From NCBI GenBank assembly GCA_947258875.1, contig CAMYKB010000022.1, forward strand, positions 1 to 62,056: DNA of 62,056 nt. The letters are read 5' to 3'. The position numbers and the translations under genes are program-made. The stretch comes from an uncultured Gammaproteobacteria bacterium. GTDB taxonomy: Bacteria > Pseudomonadota > Gammaproteobacteria > CAMYKB01. The notes beneath the pieces are model-generated. The model was not told the origin of the DNA, searched no databases, and saw nothing but the letters and a program-made list of their open reading frames with translations. Positions 4,416-29,151 of this stretch are shown piece after piece. The stretch's first letter is position 1. The number at the start of each line of letters is the position of its first letter.

Positions 4416-5309
4416 TTACTTTTTGCTATTGGTGATCATTTCATGAATGATGGGAGTGAGGATGATTTCCATGGCAAATCCCATCTTGCCGCCGGGCACC
4501 ACGATGGAGTTACGGCGTGACATGAATGAATTATGAATCATGTTAAGCAGGTACGGAAAATCGACATCAAATTTTACCGGGTCCTTGAAACGAACGATGA
4601 CAAAACTCTCGTCGGGTGTCGGGATGTCGCGTGCAATGAACGGATTAGATGTGTCAACCGTCGGTACGCGCTGAAAATTGATGTCGGAATAACCAAACTG
4701 CGGAGTAATAAAGTTCATGTAATCCGGCATGCGGCGCAGGATGGTGTCGGCGATTTCATCTGCCGAATAACCGCGCTCGGCATTGTCACGGTGAATTTTT
4801 TGAATCCACTCCAGATTGACGATAGGCACGACGCCTACGCCCAGATCGACATGCTGGGCAGCATCGGCGTTGTTGGTCTTTACCAGCCCGTGCAGCCCTT
4901 CATAAAACATCAGGTCGGTGCCAGCGGGAATGCCCTCCCAGGGTGTGAATTCACCGGCTTTTTGGTCGCAGCCCAGGCGGGCATTGTGCTCGGCGGCCTC
5001 GTCGTCATTGTGTAGGTAATAGCGTTTCTCACCACCACCATTGTTGCTGTAGTTGCCAAACAATTCTTCGAGTTTGTCGAACAAATTGGCATTTTCACCA
5101 AAGTGACTGAAGAAGTTGTTACCCGCGGCCTCTTGCTTCTGCATTTCGGCCTTCATATCGATACGACTGTAACGATGAAAGCTGTCGCCCTCGATGATCG
5201 CAGGGGTGATCTGTTCGCGTTCGAAGATATGTTCAAAGGCGCGCTTGACGGTCGAGGTTCCAGCGCCCGAAGAGCCGGTCACCGCCACGATGGGGTGTTT
5301 TCTGGACAT
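4416..5309 (-). CDS. cbbP: Phosphoribulokinase
   Basis: 297 residues, the length of the octameric proteobacterial class. The enzyme phosphorylates ribulose 5-phosphate with ATP to give the RuBisCO substrate and is specific to the Calvin-Benson cycle. The P-loop GSSGAGTST is at residues 12-20. Signature stretches IEGDSFHR, FYEGLHG, VNLEWIQKIHRD, DINFQRVP and VDTSNPFIA match the Rhodobacter enzyme. A strong RBS (AGGAG) precedes the ATG. It is monocistronic with its own terminator. RuBisCO is not in this window, but the adjoining SulP/NhaD transport genes fit a role in inorganic-carbon supply. Confidence 0.95.
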   Translation of the reverse strand: MSRKHPIVAVTGSSGAGTSTVKRAFEHIFEREQITPAIIEGDSFHRYSRIDMKAEMQKQEAAGNNFFSHFGENANLFDKLEELFGNYSNNGGGEKRYYLHNDDEAAEHNARLGCDQKAGEFTPWEGIPAGTDLMFYEGLHGLVKTNNADAAQHVDLGVGVVPIVNLEWIQKIHRDNAERGYSADEIADTILRRMPDYMNFITPQFGYSDINFQRVPTVDTSNPFIARDIPTPDESFVIVRFKDPVKFDVDFPYLLNMIHNSFMSRRNSIVVPGGKMGFAMEIILTPIIHEMITNSKK

Positions 5310-24666: not shown

Positions 24667-24826
24667 GCGATGTATTTTCTCTTTTGTACTATGGTGTAAT
24701 TTAATTTGTCATCTCATGAATAATTAATTAGTTATTAAAATACAAAGTGTAGTGTGTGCCACTCTTGGGGCATGCATACAGTTAGCGGCCTACGCAGTAC
24801 ATCATGTACTTTTGCTACCGAGGGCA

Positions 24827-25234
24827 ATGGGAATGAAAGAAATATCTGGAATCAATCACGTTGGGATTCGAGTGGCTGACCTAGAAAAGGCGAGAGATTT
24901 TTATGAGCAGCTAGGTTTTGAGTTCATTGTTGGTCCTATTGGTCCCGAGCCAGTGGCTATTATGGAGCACCCTTCAGGTGTGAATATAAATTTAATTCTA
25001 AACGCAGATTCTGGTATTACCGAAAACATACTTATGGATGTACCCGAAAAATACCCTGGTTATACCCACGTAGCATTGGATGTAACTAATATAGAAGCAA
25101 TTAGAGTGGCGTTAAAGGAAATGGGAATTGAAATTACGGAGGGGCCGGTAACTTTACCTAACGGAGGGATAATGTTGTTCATTCGTGACCAAGACAAGAA
25201 TGTGATTGAGTTTCACCAAAATCCGTCACAATGA
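24827..25234 (+). CDS. VOC-family (glyoxalase/dioxygenase fold) protein
   Basis: About 135 residues from ATG 24827 (or 24833, which follows GAGGG). It has the two beta-alpha-beta-beta-beta modules of the vicinal-oxygen-chelate fold: INHVGIRVADLEKARDFYEQLGFEF and a second half ending FIRDQDKNVIEFHQNP. Putative metal ligands are His9-equivalent in INHVG, His in YTHVALDV and Glu in VIEFHQ. Substrate unknown; could be a lyase, isomerase or dioxygenase. First gene of the accessory block after polA; lower GC than polA. Confidence 0.85.
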   Translation: MGMKEISGINHVGIRVADLEKARDFYEQLGFEFIVGPIGPEPVAIMEHPSGVNINLILNADSGITENILMDVPEKYPGYTHVALDVTNIEAIRVALKEMGIEITEGPVTLPNGGIMLFIRDQDKNVIEFHQNPSQ

Positions 25235-25272
25235 CAGCGAATAAGCAACTGTGACCCCGGGTCAACTTACTA

Positions 25273-25355
25273 AGCTAAGGAACAAAAAACGGGGTCAGAG
25301 TACAATTGTTGCTAATATTAGAGAAAATTGTGCTTTGATCCCAGTTTTCTTAGCA
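25273..25355. repeat. Imperfect palindrome of the GGGGTCAGAGTACAATT type
   Basis: GGGGTCAGAGTACAATT at 25291-25307 faces AATTGTGCTTTGATCCC at 25326-25342 (4 mismatches), and the outer GCTAAG...AAAAC arms extend the stem to about 25273-25355. Such GGGGTCAGAGTACAATT palindromes recur in many gammaproteobacterial genomes, sometimes beside REP-associated transposases; that is recalled, not searched. It separates the VOC gene from the acetyltransferase. Confidence 0.65.
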
Positions 25356-25378
25356 CATTATCATGCGCCAAAGTCGAC

Positions 25379-25882
25379 ATGGAATTAACTATCCGAACAG
25401 TAAGAGAGGAGGACGCCGAATCGATCGTTGAACTTCTGAATCCTATCATCCGTGAAGGAATGTACACCGTAATAAGCCAGGAGTTTTCGATAGAGGATCA
25501 AATTGGTTTTATTCGTGGGTTCGCGGACCGGGGTGTATTTAATGTGGCGGTATGTAGTGATACTCAACGAGTGATTGGCTTTCAGGATGTGCAGCCGATG
25601 TTTAACGATATAGACGCTTTTAAGCATGTTGGAGAAATAAGCACGTTTATATCGCTGAACTCGCATAGGAAAGGTGTAGGGAAGGCGCTCAGCCAAGTGA
25701 CTTTTCAGGAAATGAAAGATCGAGGTTATAAAAAAATAATGGCAATGATCAGGGCGGACAATCCAGGCGCACTTGATTTTTATTCCAGCCAGGGATTTGA
25801 GGTTATAGGTAAAGCCAAAAAGCATGCATTCATTAATGGTAAATATATTGATGAGGTGCTGACTGAGAAGTTCCTTGATTGA
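25379..25882 (+). CDS. GNAT-family N-acetyltransferase
   Basis: 167 residues from ATG 25379, which starts the conserved strand MELTIRTVREEDAESIVELLNPI. Motif A is HRKGVGKALSQVTFQEM (R/Q-x-x-G-x-G/A) and motif B is NPGALDFYSSQGFEVIG. Resembles phosphinothricin- or PseH-like acetyltransferases; substrate unknown. Its last 8 bases overlap the next GNAT gene, so the two form a coupled pair. Upstream lies the palindromic repeat at 25273-25355, which may carry its leader. Confidence 0.85.
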   Translation: MELTIRTVREEDAESIVELLNPIIREGMYTVISQEFSIEDQIGFIRGFADRGVFNVAVCSDTQRVIGFQDVQPMFNDIDAFKHVGEISTFISLNSHRKGVGKALSQVTFQEMKDRGYKKIMAMIRADNPGALDFYSSQGFEVIGKAKKHAFINGKYIDEVLTEKFLD

Positions 25883-26414
25883 AAGAATTATTTTGAAACA
25901 AAAATTAGTCATACCTCGAGAAGAATTTCGTGAAACGTACACTTCATTCATTAATGAATTTATATCGCGCGAAGAAGAGTTGATCCCGTTTCCACTACGA
26001 TTCCCACATGAAAACTTTAAAGCGCTTGTTTCCCGATTGGCTGATCAGTCGAAAGGTGTAGGGATTCCAGACGGATTTGTTCCCAGCTCAACCTATTGGT
26101 TAATCGATGAAACCTCGGCTTTGGTGGGAGTATCGAATCTCAGGCACGAACTAACGCCAAATCTTGAGCGAGAAGGTGGGCATATTGGCTTTGGTGTTCG
26201 TCCTTCGTCAAGGCGGCAGGGCTTTGGTTCGCTATTACTGAAAGAGACGCTTCAAGAAGCGCGAGGTATAGGAATCGAAAGACTGCTGGTTGCATGTGAC
26301 AAAAAGAATATTGCATCTGCTGGCACTATCATTGTTAATGGTGGTGTTCTCAGCGACGAGGAGTTTTTGCCAGAACACGGTTTTATTGTTCAGCGATATT
26401 GGATCGACATATAA
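25875..26414 (+). CDS. GNAT-family N-acetyltransferase
   Basis: 179 residues starting with TTG 25875, overlapping the previous gene's stop and preceded by GAGAAG. GNAT core: STYWLIDETSALVGVSNLRHELTPNLEREGGHIGFGVRPSSRRQGFGSLLLKETL, followed by RLLVACDKKNIASAGTIIVNGG. This is the pattern of the YjaB/YitI-like group whose members act on small molecules; substrate unknown. Translationally coupled to the upstream acetyltransferase. Confidence 0.85.
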   Translation: MIERIILKQKLVIPREEFRETYTSFINEFISREEELIPFPLRFPHENFKALVSRLADQSKGVGIPDGFVPSSTYWLIDETSALVGVSNLRHELTPNLEREGGHIGFGVRPSSRRQGFGSLLLKETLQEARGIGIERLLVACDKKNIASAGTIIVNGGVLSDEEFLPEHGFIVQRYWIDI

Positions 26415-26424
26415 GCGAAGCGGG

Positions 26425-26470
26425 TATCCGGCGTTATAGAACGCAATAGTGCAGCGTATTACGCCGGATC
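26425..26470. repeat. REP-like palindrome
   Basis: ATCCGGCGT at 26426-26434 is inverted as ACGCCGGAT at 26461-26469, with partly complementary sequence between. It lies between the acetyltransferase pair and the sulfur oxygenase reductase. It could end the upstream transcript or be a member of a dispersed repeat family. Confidence 0.55.
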
Positions 26471-26553
26471 TAATGTTATAATTATTTGCAAACTTAATAG
26501 CTTCCAACCGTACTGATGTCGTACTACATTGCCTAAGAACCAGGAAATTAATT

Positions 26554-27492
26554 ATGACCATTGATATTAAGAAGTTATTTGATGCTGAGCCAAAATCCCC
26601 GTTGTACGTTGCCATCAATCGCGTGCAGGTCAAGAACGATCCGAATCTCATGAGGATGATGAAGCAGGCCAGCTCCAAGATGTGTCTTGCCACGGCGTTG
26701 ACGCCCGGGTTCAAAGGGTTTGATCTGATGAAACAGCTTGGCGCCTGTCCGATGGGTATGCGCTGGGGTGCAAGCAGTGATATGGGTGAGCAGCTATCAC
26801 ATATCTGGATCGACCAGTTTACGTATTGGGATTCGTGGGAGGCGCATGAAAATTTCCACGAGATTTTTGAAGACGTGGTGGTCGACACCTGCGCGAAATG
26901 CGGTGATGTGTTGTTGGAAGGGCCTGAGGAACCGGTTTTCAGGGTGGTCCATAGCGATCTTCCCAAGTTGGTCTCGATGAATCAATGGCTAAAAAAGAGT
27001 GCTGAAGGTAAGGCCAAGGGTTATGCGGCAGATACCGGTAAAACTGTTACTGTGATGGCGACGCATCGCATTCGCCCGGGTAAGGAGGCGGAATTCGAGG
27101 CGGGTGAAATCGAAACCATGGAAAAACTTAAGGAATCCACCGGCATGATCGGCTTTCAAATCCTTAAACGGATCGGTCTGTCGACCCTGGGCAGTGGTCA
27201 TGCGACCGTTGAATCTCTACTGGAGGATCTTAAGGACAGCTCCGGGAGTAAACTGAAACGCACGGCCGAGGTTTGGGAGGGTTACACCATCCCTGCTGAA
27301 TATCTGGTGATGGTCGAGTGGGAAAGTCTCCAGGATGCACAAGGGAATATGCCGCATGTAAACGTTAAGCCGGAGATCTTGTTCGTGCATGGGCCGAAAG
27401 TCCTGAACAACTGTTTGCATATGCCTAATGTGCGTATGGCGGATTCGATGTTCAGGGAGCAAACCTATCGCGAAATACTCAACAGCAAATGA
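26554..27492 (+). CDS. sor: Sulfur oxygenase reductase
   Basis: 312 residues aligning end to end with archaeal and bacterial SOR. The enzyme disproportionates elemental sulfur with O2 to sulfite, thiosulfate and sulfide in the cytoplasm without external cofactors. All active-site residues have the right spacing: Cys44 (persulfide-carrying), iron ligands His98, His102 and Glu126, and Cys113/Cys116. The tail region HVNVKPEILFVHGPKVLNN is also conserved. AGGAAA precedes the ATG. No TM or signal sequence. It is single-gene, flanked by a REP-like palindrome and a decayed acetyltransferase gene, consistent with acquisition by transfer. Confidence 0.95.
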   Translation: MTIDIKKLFDAEPKSPLYVAINRVQVKNDPNLMRMMKQASSKMCLATALTPGFKGFDLMKQLGACPMGMRWGASSDMGEQLSHIWIDQFTYWDSWEAHENFHEIFEDVVVDTCAKCGDVLLEGPEEPVFRVVHSDLPKLVSMNQWLKKSAEGKAKGYAADTGKTVTVMATHRIRPGKEAEFEAGEIETMEKLKESTGMIGFQILKRIGLSTLGSGHATVESLLEDLKDSSGSKLKRTAEVWEGYTIPAEYLVMVEWESLQDAQGNMPHVNVKPEILFVHGPKVLNNCLHMPNVRMADSMFREQTYREILNSK

Positions 27493-27761
27493 AGGCTGAA
27501 CATTGACTATGTTGTGCATGTAGGGAGTCCTTACGACCCGCCCGCGAAAAATGTAATAGCGGGTAAGATAATGACATCCGGTATTGTATTGCGGTCCGGT
27601 TTCACTGGCTTTCTAATATGCATGTAAAATGGCGATGTAATTGAGGCGCTAGAGGCTGCTGTTAATGCAAATCCTGCCGCTAACAAACGAGACCATCCCG
27701 CCTGCGAAGAGATTGGTCGATCGTGCTTTCCACATCAGAGCCCATCTGAACGGTTGAGCTT

Positions 27762-28080
27762 TTGGGATATACTCACAAGCAGTCCTTCCTGGTTCAACTG
27801 TGCTTCAAGTTCTTTGGTATCAAGGATCTGACAGGATTTTGGGGGGTGATGAAAGACGGAACAGACGAAGTTATCGCGTTCGCTGGTTTATCTTCATATA
27901 CAAAGGACGCGGATGGAGCGGTTTGGCTTGCATGGTTTTGTGTTGCGCCTGTGCTCACTGCGCGCTGATGCTTCGTCCCAGGCGTTCCGGGAACAAGGAT
28001 TGAATGATATGGGCAAGAGTGGGCAGGCGAATACAACTATCGTCCGGTTCACGCAACTCTCTATCGTCTCTGTTCAAATG
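27762..28080 (+). pseudogene. Decayed GNAT acetyltransferase
   Basis: The frame 27762-27965 encodes a fragment typical of an acetyltransferase centre (GFWGVMKDGTDEVIAFAGLSSY, VWLAWFCVAP) and then stops; a later stretch in another frame (EYNYRPVHATLYRLCSNGQ, to ~28080) resembles the C-terminal part of the same kind of protein. There is no convincing start. The preceding 27493-27761 contains no gene I can support. A frameshifted remnant is the simplest reading. Confidence 0.5.
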
Positions 28081-28092
28081 GCCAATAAACGG

Positions 28093-28497
28093 CTACTTGA
28101 TCAGTTTTATTGTTAGTGGGTATTCAAATAATTCGCCATTGCTGGCCTTGATGGTTGCTATGATCACCATCGCGATCCAGAAAATAAGTAATCCAATACC
28201 AAGAAATAGGCCGATTACAACAAAAGCGAGCAGGAAACAGACAATTCCATAGATAGCGACAGAGATTTGGAAGTTAAGCGCATTTTTGCCGTGCGCATCA
28301 ACTAGCGGCGATTGTTCGCGTTTTATCAACCACATCACCAGTGGTGCGATCACGCTTCCGAAAGGTATGACTAAACCAGCCAGGGCGGATAAATGTGTGA
28401 ATATGGCCCAGTTCTTTTCGTCCGCCGCATTCATTCCGCCACCTTGTGACGCGGGGCCCTCAGCTGGAGGTTGTGGCTGATTTTCCTGGTTTTCCAT
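28093..28497 (-). CDS. DUF4870 (Tic20-like) membrane protein
   Basis: 134 residues: a proline- and glutamine-rich cytoplasmic N-terminus, then the DUF4870 core of three helices (WAIFTHLSALAGLVIPFGSVIAPLVMWLIKREQSPLVDAHGKNALNFQIS, then two hydrophobic helices). The family is widespread and of unknown function. A good AGAGAGGTG RBS precedes the ATG. Divergent from the RDD-family gene, another small integral membrane protein. Confidence 0.88.
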   Translation of the reverse strand: MENQENQPQPPAEGPASQGGGMNAADEKNWAIFTHLSALAGLVIPFGSVIAPLVMWLIKREQSPLVDAHGKNALNFQISVAIYGIVCFLLAFVVIGLFLGIGLLIFWIAMVIIATIKASNGELFEYPLTIKLIK

Positions 28498-28686
28498 AAA
28501 ACACCTCTCTTTCAGTTCAATTATTTGGGTCTCTCTAAGTATTAATCAAATACTATATAAGATTGATTATACAGGCTGCTAGGGTGCGATGGAGACGAGT
28601 ATGCACCTAATTGTGAAGATAAAATATATTATGCTGCGCTGCAGGCAGCGTTCACTCAGATTCGTTAGTAATCAAAAAGGAATACT

Positions 28687-29151
28687 ATGAAAGACCCATT
28701 ATCTCCGTATGCGCCACCCAAAAGCTCACTTGAAACAGATTACCAGGAGTCAGCTGAAATTGTTTTGGTGAGTAAGTGGTTACGGCTTGCCAATTTAGTC
28801 ATAGATTATATTGGCTATATGATCCTGGCAGTAATAGTAGGTATTTTGGTCGCTATAATATGGGGTGAAGAAGGGATTAAGTATATGGAGTCGATCCCGG
28901 ATATTGTTTTCGGTGCTCCAATTCTACTCGGATACTATATTTTCTTTGAGTCACTCACAGGAAGAACCCTGGGGAAACTTGTGACCGGCACAAAAGTCGT
29001 AAATGAAAATGGATTAAGGGCTTCATTTGGTCAAATTTTAGGGCGTTCATTCTCCAGATTGATCCCGTTTGAGGTTTTTTCTTTTTTGGGAGAAAAGGGT
29101 CGCGGATGGCACGACAGTTTGCCAAGAACATATGTAGTTAAAAACAGGTGA
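28687..29151 (+). CDS. RDD-family membrane protein
   Basis: 154 residues with an N-terminal polar segment (SPYAPPKSSLET), the family pattern R-x3-xxD at helix 1 (LRLANLVIDYIGYMIL), a second helix pair and the GRTLGKLVTGTKVVNENG loop, ending RGWHDSLPRTYVV. RDD proteins are thought to be ion or small-molecule transport components; function here unknown. AAAAGGAAT lies just before ATG. AT-rich. Divergent from the DUF4870 gene across 190 bp. Confidence 0.88.
   Translation: MKDPLSPYAPPKSSLETDYQESAEIVLVSKWLRLANLVIDYIGYMILAVIVGILVAIIWGEEGIKYMESIPDIVFGAPILLGYYIFFESLTGRTLGKLVTGTKVVNENGLRASFGQILGRSFSRLIPFEVFSFLGEKGRGWHDSLPRTYVVKNR

Follow-up and report, generated by a model that had tools for sequence, protein, structure and literature searches.

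A predicted Thioalkalivibrio-type sulfur oxygenase reductase in a carboxysome-bearing gammaproteobacterium

Results

The sor locus and its surroundings

The window analysed here is a stretch of 62,056 nucleotides (positions 1 to 62,056 of contig CAMYKB010000022.1, assembly GCA_947258875.1) from an uncultured gammaproteobacterium of the lineage CAMYKB01. The following features were annotated in it.

4416..5309, minus strand: phosphoribulokinase gene (prk), Calvin cycle context
25376..25882, plus strand: GNAT acetyltransferase gene (Pfam), low GC3, a neighbour outside the SOR system
25875..26414, plus strand: second GNAT acetyltransferase gene (Pfam), low GC3, likewise outside the SOR system
26426..26469, no strand: imperfect inverted repeat with 13-nt arms (hairpin), located between sor and the GNAT gene preceding it
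26554..27492, plus strand: sor, sulfur oxygenase reductase (SOR), 312 aa (Pfam, match to PDB 9rdn, residues, tree)
27749..27957, plus strand: possible remnant of a GNAT-like gene, read by eye only

The sor open reading frame starts with ATG and is translated into 312 amino acids with zero internal stops. It is located 26.5 kb into a 131.7-kb contig alongside polA, engB and yifB, in a genome rated at 98.5% completeness and 0.16% contamination; the core genes on the contig and these quality figures imply that the contig is not a stray one. Around sor, positions 24752-29151 of the window, between polA and a ubiE-like gene, contain mostly accessory genes (a glyoxalase, two GNATs and an RDD gene) of low GC3 (0.37-0.43), and this segment looks like a variable region.

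Two flanking features had been described from the sequence alone as a palindromic repeat and a decayed gene. The palindrome exists, with arms at 26426-26438 and 26457-26469 that pair at 12 of 13 positions, but it is no repeat: the hairpin has a single copy in the genome, which rules it out as a repeated element, and matches to one arm occur in the window at close to the frequency expected by chance. The hairpin is thus uninformative on mobility. As for the decayed gene, the ~600 bp downstream of sor are without a long intact plus-strand ORF; a GNAT-like fragment can be made out in them by eye, but it was recognised by neither the Pfam nor the PDB sequence search. A second palindrome was observed at 25285-25348, with 36-nt arms that are 78% complementary; it contains GGGGTCAGAGTA, present as one exact copy only within the window.

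Identity of the sor product

The sor product matches the SOR family PF07682 at 217.9 bits (E 2e-64; cut-off 25 bits) over profile positions 2-300 of 300. Among solved structures, the PDB sequence search ranked first 9rdn, an entry titled 'Sulfur oxygenase reductase' (E 1e-159, residues 1-310 aligned), with the archaeal SOR structures far behind at about 1e-46. Together with the intact reading frame, these matches uphold the original description of the gene as a complete SOR. In a Foldseek search the first ten matches were all SORs (TM about 0.7); however, the AlphaFold model used as the query is of low confidence (pLDDT 60, too weak for active-site geometry), and the sequence match to the solved 9rdn is the stronger evidence for the fold. 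Compared with its relatives, sor has a dN of 0.055-0.2 while synonymous sites are saturated (pS about 0.8), which indicates strong purifying selection. The predicted product of this genuine, intact SOR gene is a cytoplasmic iron enzyme that would oxidise elemental sulfur with O2.

Two clades of SOR in Gammaproteobacteria

A tree of 45 SOR sequences splits into two clades, each fully supported (100/100). The first includes the archaeal and Halothiobacillus SORs, the Halothiobacillus neapolitanus entry 6qpa among them, plus six sampled Gammaproteobacteria. The second includes 9rdn, Thioalkalivibrio, Thiotrichaceae, Chromatiaceae, Ectothiorhodospiraceae MAGs, Milos-ODIII6 and the window SOR. The latter has 69-90% identity to members of its own clade, against 31-32% to SORs of archaea and Halothiobacillus. 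The phylogeny suggested as a check by the sequence-only reading thus places the protein inside the SOR family, grouped with Thioalkalivibrio at 100/100 support; on the other hand, Thioalkalivibrio and Halothiobacillus, treated there as one set of mesophilic SORs, fall in different clades.

The claim that SOR is rare outside thermoacidophiles and a few bacteria proved overstated. Among 369 evenly drawn Gammaproteobacteria genomes, ten encode an SOR above the Pfam cut-off, four of them of the Thioalkalivibrio type (the window's own included), and copies 69-90% identical to the window SOR were found in at least 36 named genomes. This corrects the image of SOR as a thermoacidophile rarity, given that an SOR is encoded by about 3% of the Gammaproteobacteria species sampled and that these enzymes belong to two separate clades. 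The sor gene has already been reported in Thioalkalivibrio (PMC6382920), Milos-ODIII6 (PMC10952691), shallow-vent biofilms (PMC8056087) and marine sediment MAGs (PMC12345210). The window SOR falls in a bacterial branch of the family that was known before and is found in many marine and soda-lake sulfur bacteria; it is itself a new but ordinary member of a known enzyme clade.

The window protein scores 180.7 bits against the NCBIfam equivalog NF047630 (SulOxRed), far under its curated cut-off of 400. What this model covers is apparently the archaeal/Halothiobacillus clade, and it leaves one of the two gammaproteobacterial SOR clades beyond its reach; given the miss of the window member, the Thioalkalivibrio-type clade may be under-named in public annotation. 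In four sampled Gammaproteobacteria (L038, L039, L040, L041), the archaeal/Halothiobacillus-type sor adjoins a Pyr_redox_2 gene, perhaps sulfide:quinone reductase-like.

Two close named systems lie within the second clade. The Thioalkalivibrio-type SOR (TpSOR; 9rdn) has the same length as the window SOR, about 74% identity to it, and the same iron ligands, cysteines and Phe at the second pore position. 9rdn has 89-91% identity to Thioalkalivibrio MAG proteins. Thioalkalivibrio sequences form a subclade of their own (100/100), and the window host represents another lineage. The SOR of Milos-ODIII6 (L037; PMC10952691) is 86% identical to the window SOR and falls in the same subclade. Its host resembles the window host in being a sulfur oxidiser that has carboxysomes and genes for rDsr and Sox, but it is of a different lineage by PolA and the genes flanking its sor are unlike those in the window.

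Active site, pore and chimney

Functional residues were compared using the set given in PMC7398979. All iron ligands (His98, His102, Glu126) and cysteines (44, 113, 116) are at the positions first claimed for them, as verified by script, and C44, H98, H102, C113, C116 and E126 align with C31, H86, H90, C101, C104 and E114 of the Acidianus ambivalens SOR. The archaeal spacing was likewise claimed to be kept. Four spacings are indeed identical (H-H 4, H-C 11, C-C 3 and C-E 10), but the distance from C44 to the first histidine is one residue shorter (54 instead of 55). The iron ligands and three cysteines are invariant in an alignment of 28 members from both SOR clades.

At about 31-32% identity, the Acidianus ambivalens (2cb2) and Halothiobacillus neapolitanus (6qpa) enzymes share with the window SOR these ligands and cysteines as well as the histidines of the zinc site and the first methionine of the pore; H171, H279 and M299 are the window equivalents of H166, H277 and M296. 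Barring truncated rows, the iron ligands, the three cysteines, both zinc-site histidines and this methionine are conserved in the Thioalkalivibrio-type clade, with one row substituted at the H166 position. The second pore methionine is different: in place of the archaeal-type pair M296/M297, the window SOR has M299 and F300, and the M297 position is Phe in all 38 clade rows having that column. The hydrophobic chimney of 2cb2 and 6qpa is not kept either, with S149 at the F141 position and W145 at the F133 position; neither the chimney nor the paired methionines are obligatory for an SOR. Across the clade, the F141 position is variable and mostly polar, the F133 position is Trp, Phe, Met or Leu, and the R99 position is Asp, Thr, Asn or Glu. 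Loops that follow the chimney helix or precede the C-terminal strand are shorter than in 2cb2 and 6qpa.

Such differences, along with the score below the NCBIfam equivalog cut-off, might be expected of an SOR-fold relative that has retained the iron site but come to act as an oxygenase on some other small molecule. We regard this as very improbable, since all three catalytic cysteines are invariant, most named hosts of close copies belong to lineages in which sulfur oxidation is known, and sulfur oxidation is reported for the enzyme of Thioalkalivibrio paradoxus, a member of the clade (PMC6382920). The chimney and pore differences mark a subfamily of SOR rather than non-membership, because they are the same throughout a clade that includes this enzyme reported to be active.

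Codon composition and origin of sor

The position of sor between the hairpin and the presumed remnant had been taken to suggest recent gain. The evidence does not support this: GC3 of sor (0.607) is close to that of polA (0.635) and prk (0.624), the palindrome is unrepeated, and synonymous sites are saturated relative to all sampled relatives. Saturation combined with low dN argues against recent transfer from any sampled lineage, and neither composition nor synonymous divergence from sampled relatives gave a recent-transfer signal; a donor from an unsampled lineage is possible. No flanking DNA around sor common to the window and its relatives was found. A conserved sulfur-gene neighbourhood was also sought and rejected, as the relatives share none with the window and have unrelated neighbours (radical SAM, ChaN/PDZ and GGDEF genes).

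An intact but physiologically idle passenger in the variable region by polA would account for this missing common neighbourhood and for the setting of sor, which is surrounded by low-GC accessory genes, none of them a sulfur partner. Yet purifying selection is strong clade-wide and the codon composition agrees with that of host core genes, so that we give an idle gene very little credence. Another alternative is an SOR of the classic type, disproportionating sulfur with its oxygenase and reductase activities in balance and recently gained from a thermoacidophile or a Halothiobacillus-like donor. It would have the same catalytic residues, but such an origin is refuted by the SOR tree (other clade, 100/100; 31-32% identity), and with the core-like GC3 and saturated synonymous sites this explanation is most unlikely.

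Lateral spread of the Thioalkalivibrio-type clade in general is supported by comparison of SOR and PolA sequences. For instance, the SORs of L002 and L003 are 90% identical to that of the window, where their PolA proteins are 44-45% identical and are placed outside Gammaproteobacteria at 100/100 support in the PolA tree. Milos-ODIII6 also differs in position between the PolA and SOR trees. The AU tests were only in part decisive: holding L002, L003, L011 and L032 together was not rejected (p 0.15), and holding L002, L003 and L011 together was weakly rejected (p 0.045). Binning error in these MAGs is a possible alternative source of the lateral signal.

L002 (4670-6953) and L003 (4668-6953) have in common a 2.3-kb block of a radical SAM gene and sor, with 91.7% DNA identity. 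Since the DNA beyond it differs between the two, the block may have been transferred as a small unit. In L032 (4821-6651; CP070746.1, Desulfobacterales bin36), sor is without codons 1-96, and the end of a DDE transposase ORF coincides with the truncation; the missing codons were not found within the 12.6 kb examined.

Host metabolism and proposed function

The assignment of the host to Calvin-cycle bacteria holds: besides phosphoribulokinase, its genome has an alpha-carboxysome locus in which genes for CsoS2 and CsoSCA come after those for the large and small subunits of RuBisCO. The genome also includes two soxB genes and a single run of dsrA, dsrB, dsrE, dsrF, dsrH, dsrC, dsrK and genes for a DsrL-like oxidoreductase and a DsrO-like ferredoxin. 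The dsrEFH genes and a dsrL-like gene are the mark of oxidative-type dsr, and by its gene content the host operon is assigned to this type. With rDsr and Sox genes present, SOR would be only one among the sulfur routes of the host, and one that, according to PMC12345210, conserves no energy.

By homology, the sor product would form a hollow homo-oligomer in the cytoplasm. Its mononuclear non-haem iron (His98, His102, Glu126) and Cys44 would bind polysulfide, and O2 and water would be used to produce sulfite; sulfide would also be formed, and thiosulfate would arise non-enzymatically. Cytoplasmic oxidation of S0 by the host SOR, proposed from the start, is a reasonable expectation. We consider it very likely that sor encodes a functional single-gene SOR of the Thioalkalivibrio-type clade that supplements rDsr and Sox, presumably by converting excess cytoplasmic zero-valent sulfur to sulfite. 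The enzyme probably acts mostly as an oxygenase, because of the clade-wide pore Phe, the changed chimney and the low reductase activity in Thioalkalivibrio.

Regarding the pore, alanine at the two methionines lowers activity in Acidianus, and the Thioalkalivibrio paradoxus SOR has atypically low reductase activity, as stated in PMC7398979 (citing Veith 2011) and PMC6382920 (citing Ruhl 2017), respectively. We infer that the change of M297 to Phe and the chimney changes may be linked to this low activity. A wider generalization can be offered tentatively, as something possible and rather less than probable: the Thioalkalivibrio-type clade would be an SOR subfamily with a function of its own, in essence that of a sulfur dioxygenase in the cytoplasm, its pore and chimney remodelled by the change of M297 to Phe and the loss of F141. 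Lateral transfer would have carried it, as a single gene added to rDsr/Sox sulfur oxidisers, between Gammaproteobacteria and one or more further phyla. The clade-wide pore changes would offer a simple explanation, open to testing, of why reductase activity is reported to be low in the Thioalkalivibrio SOR.
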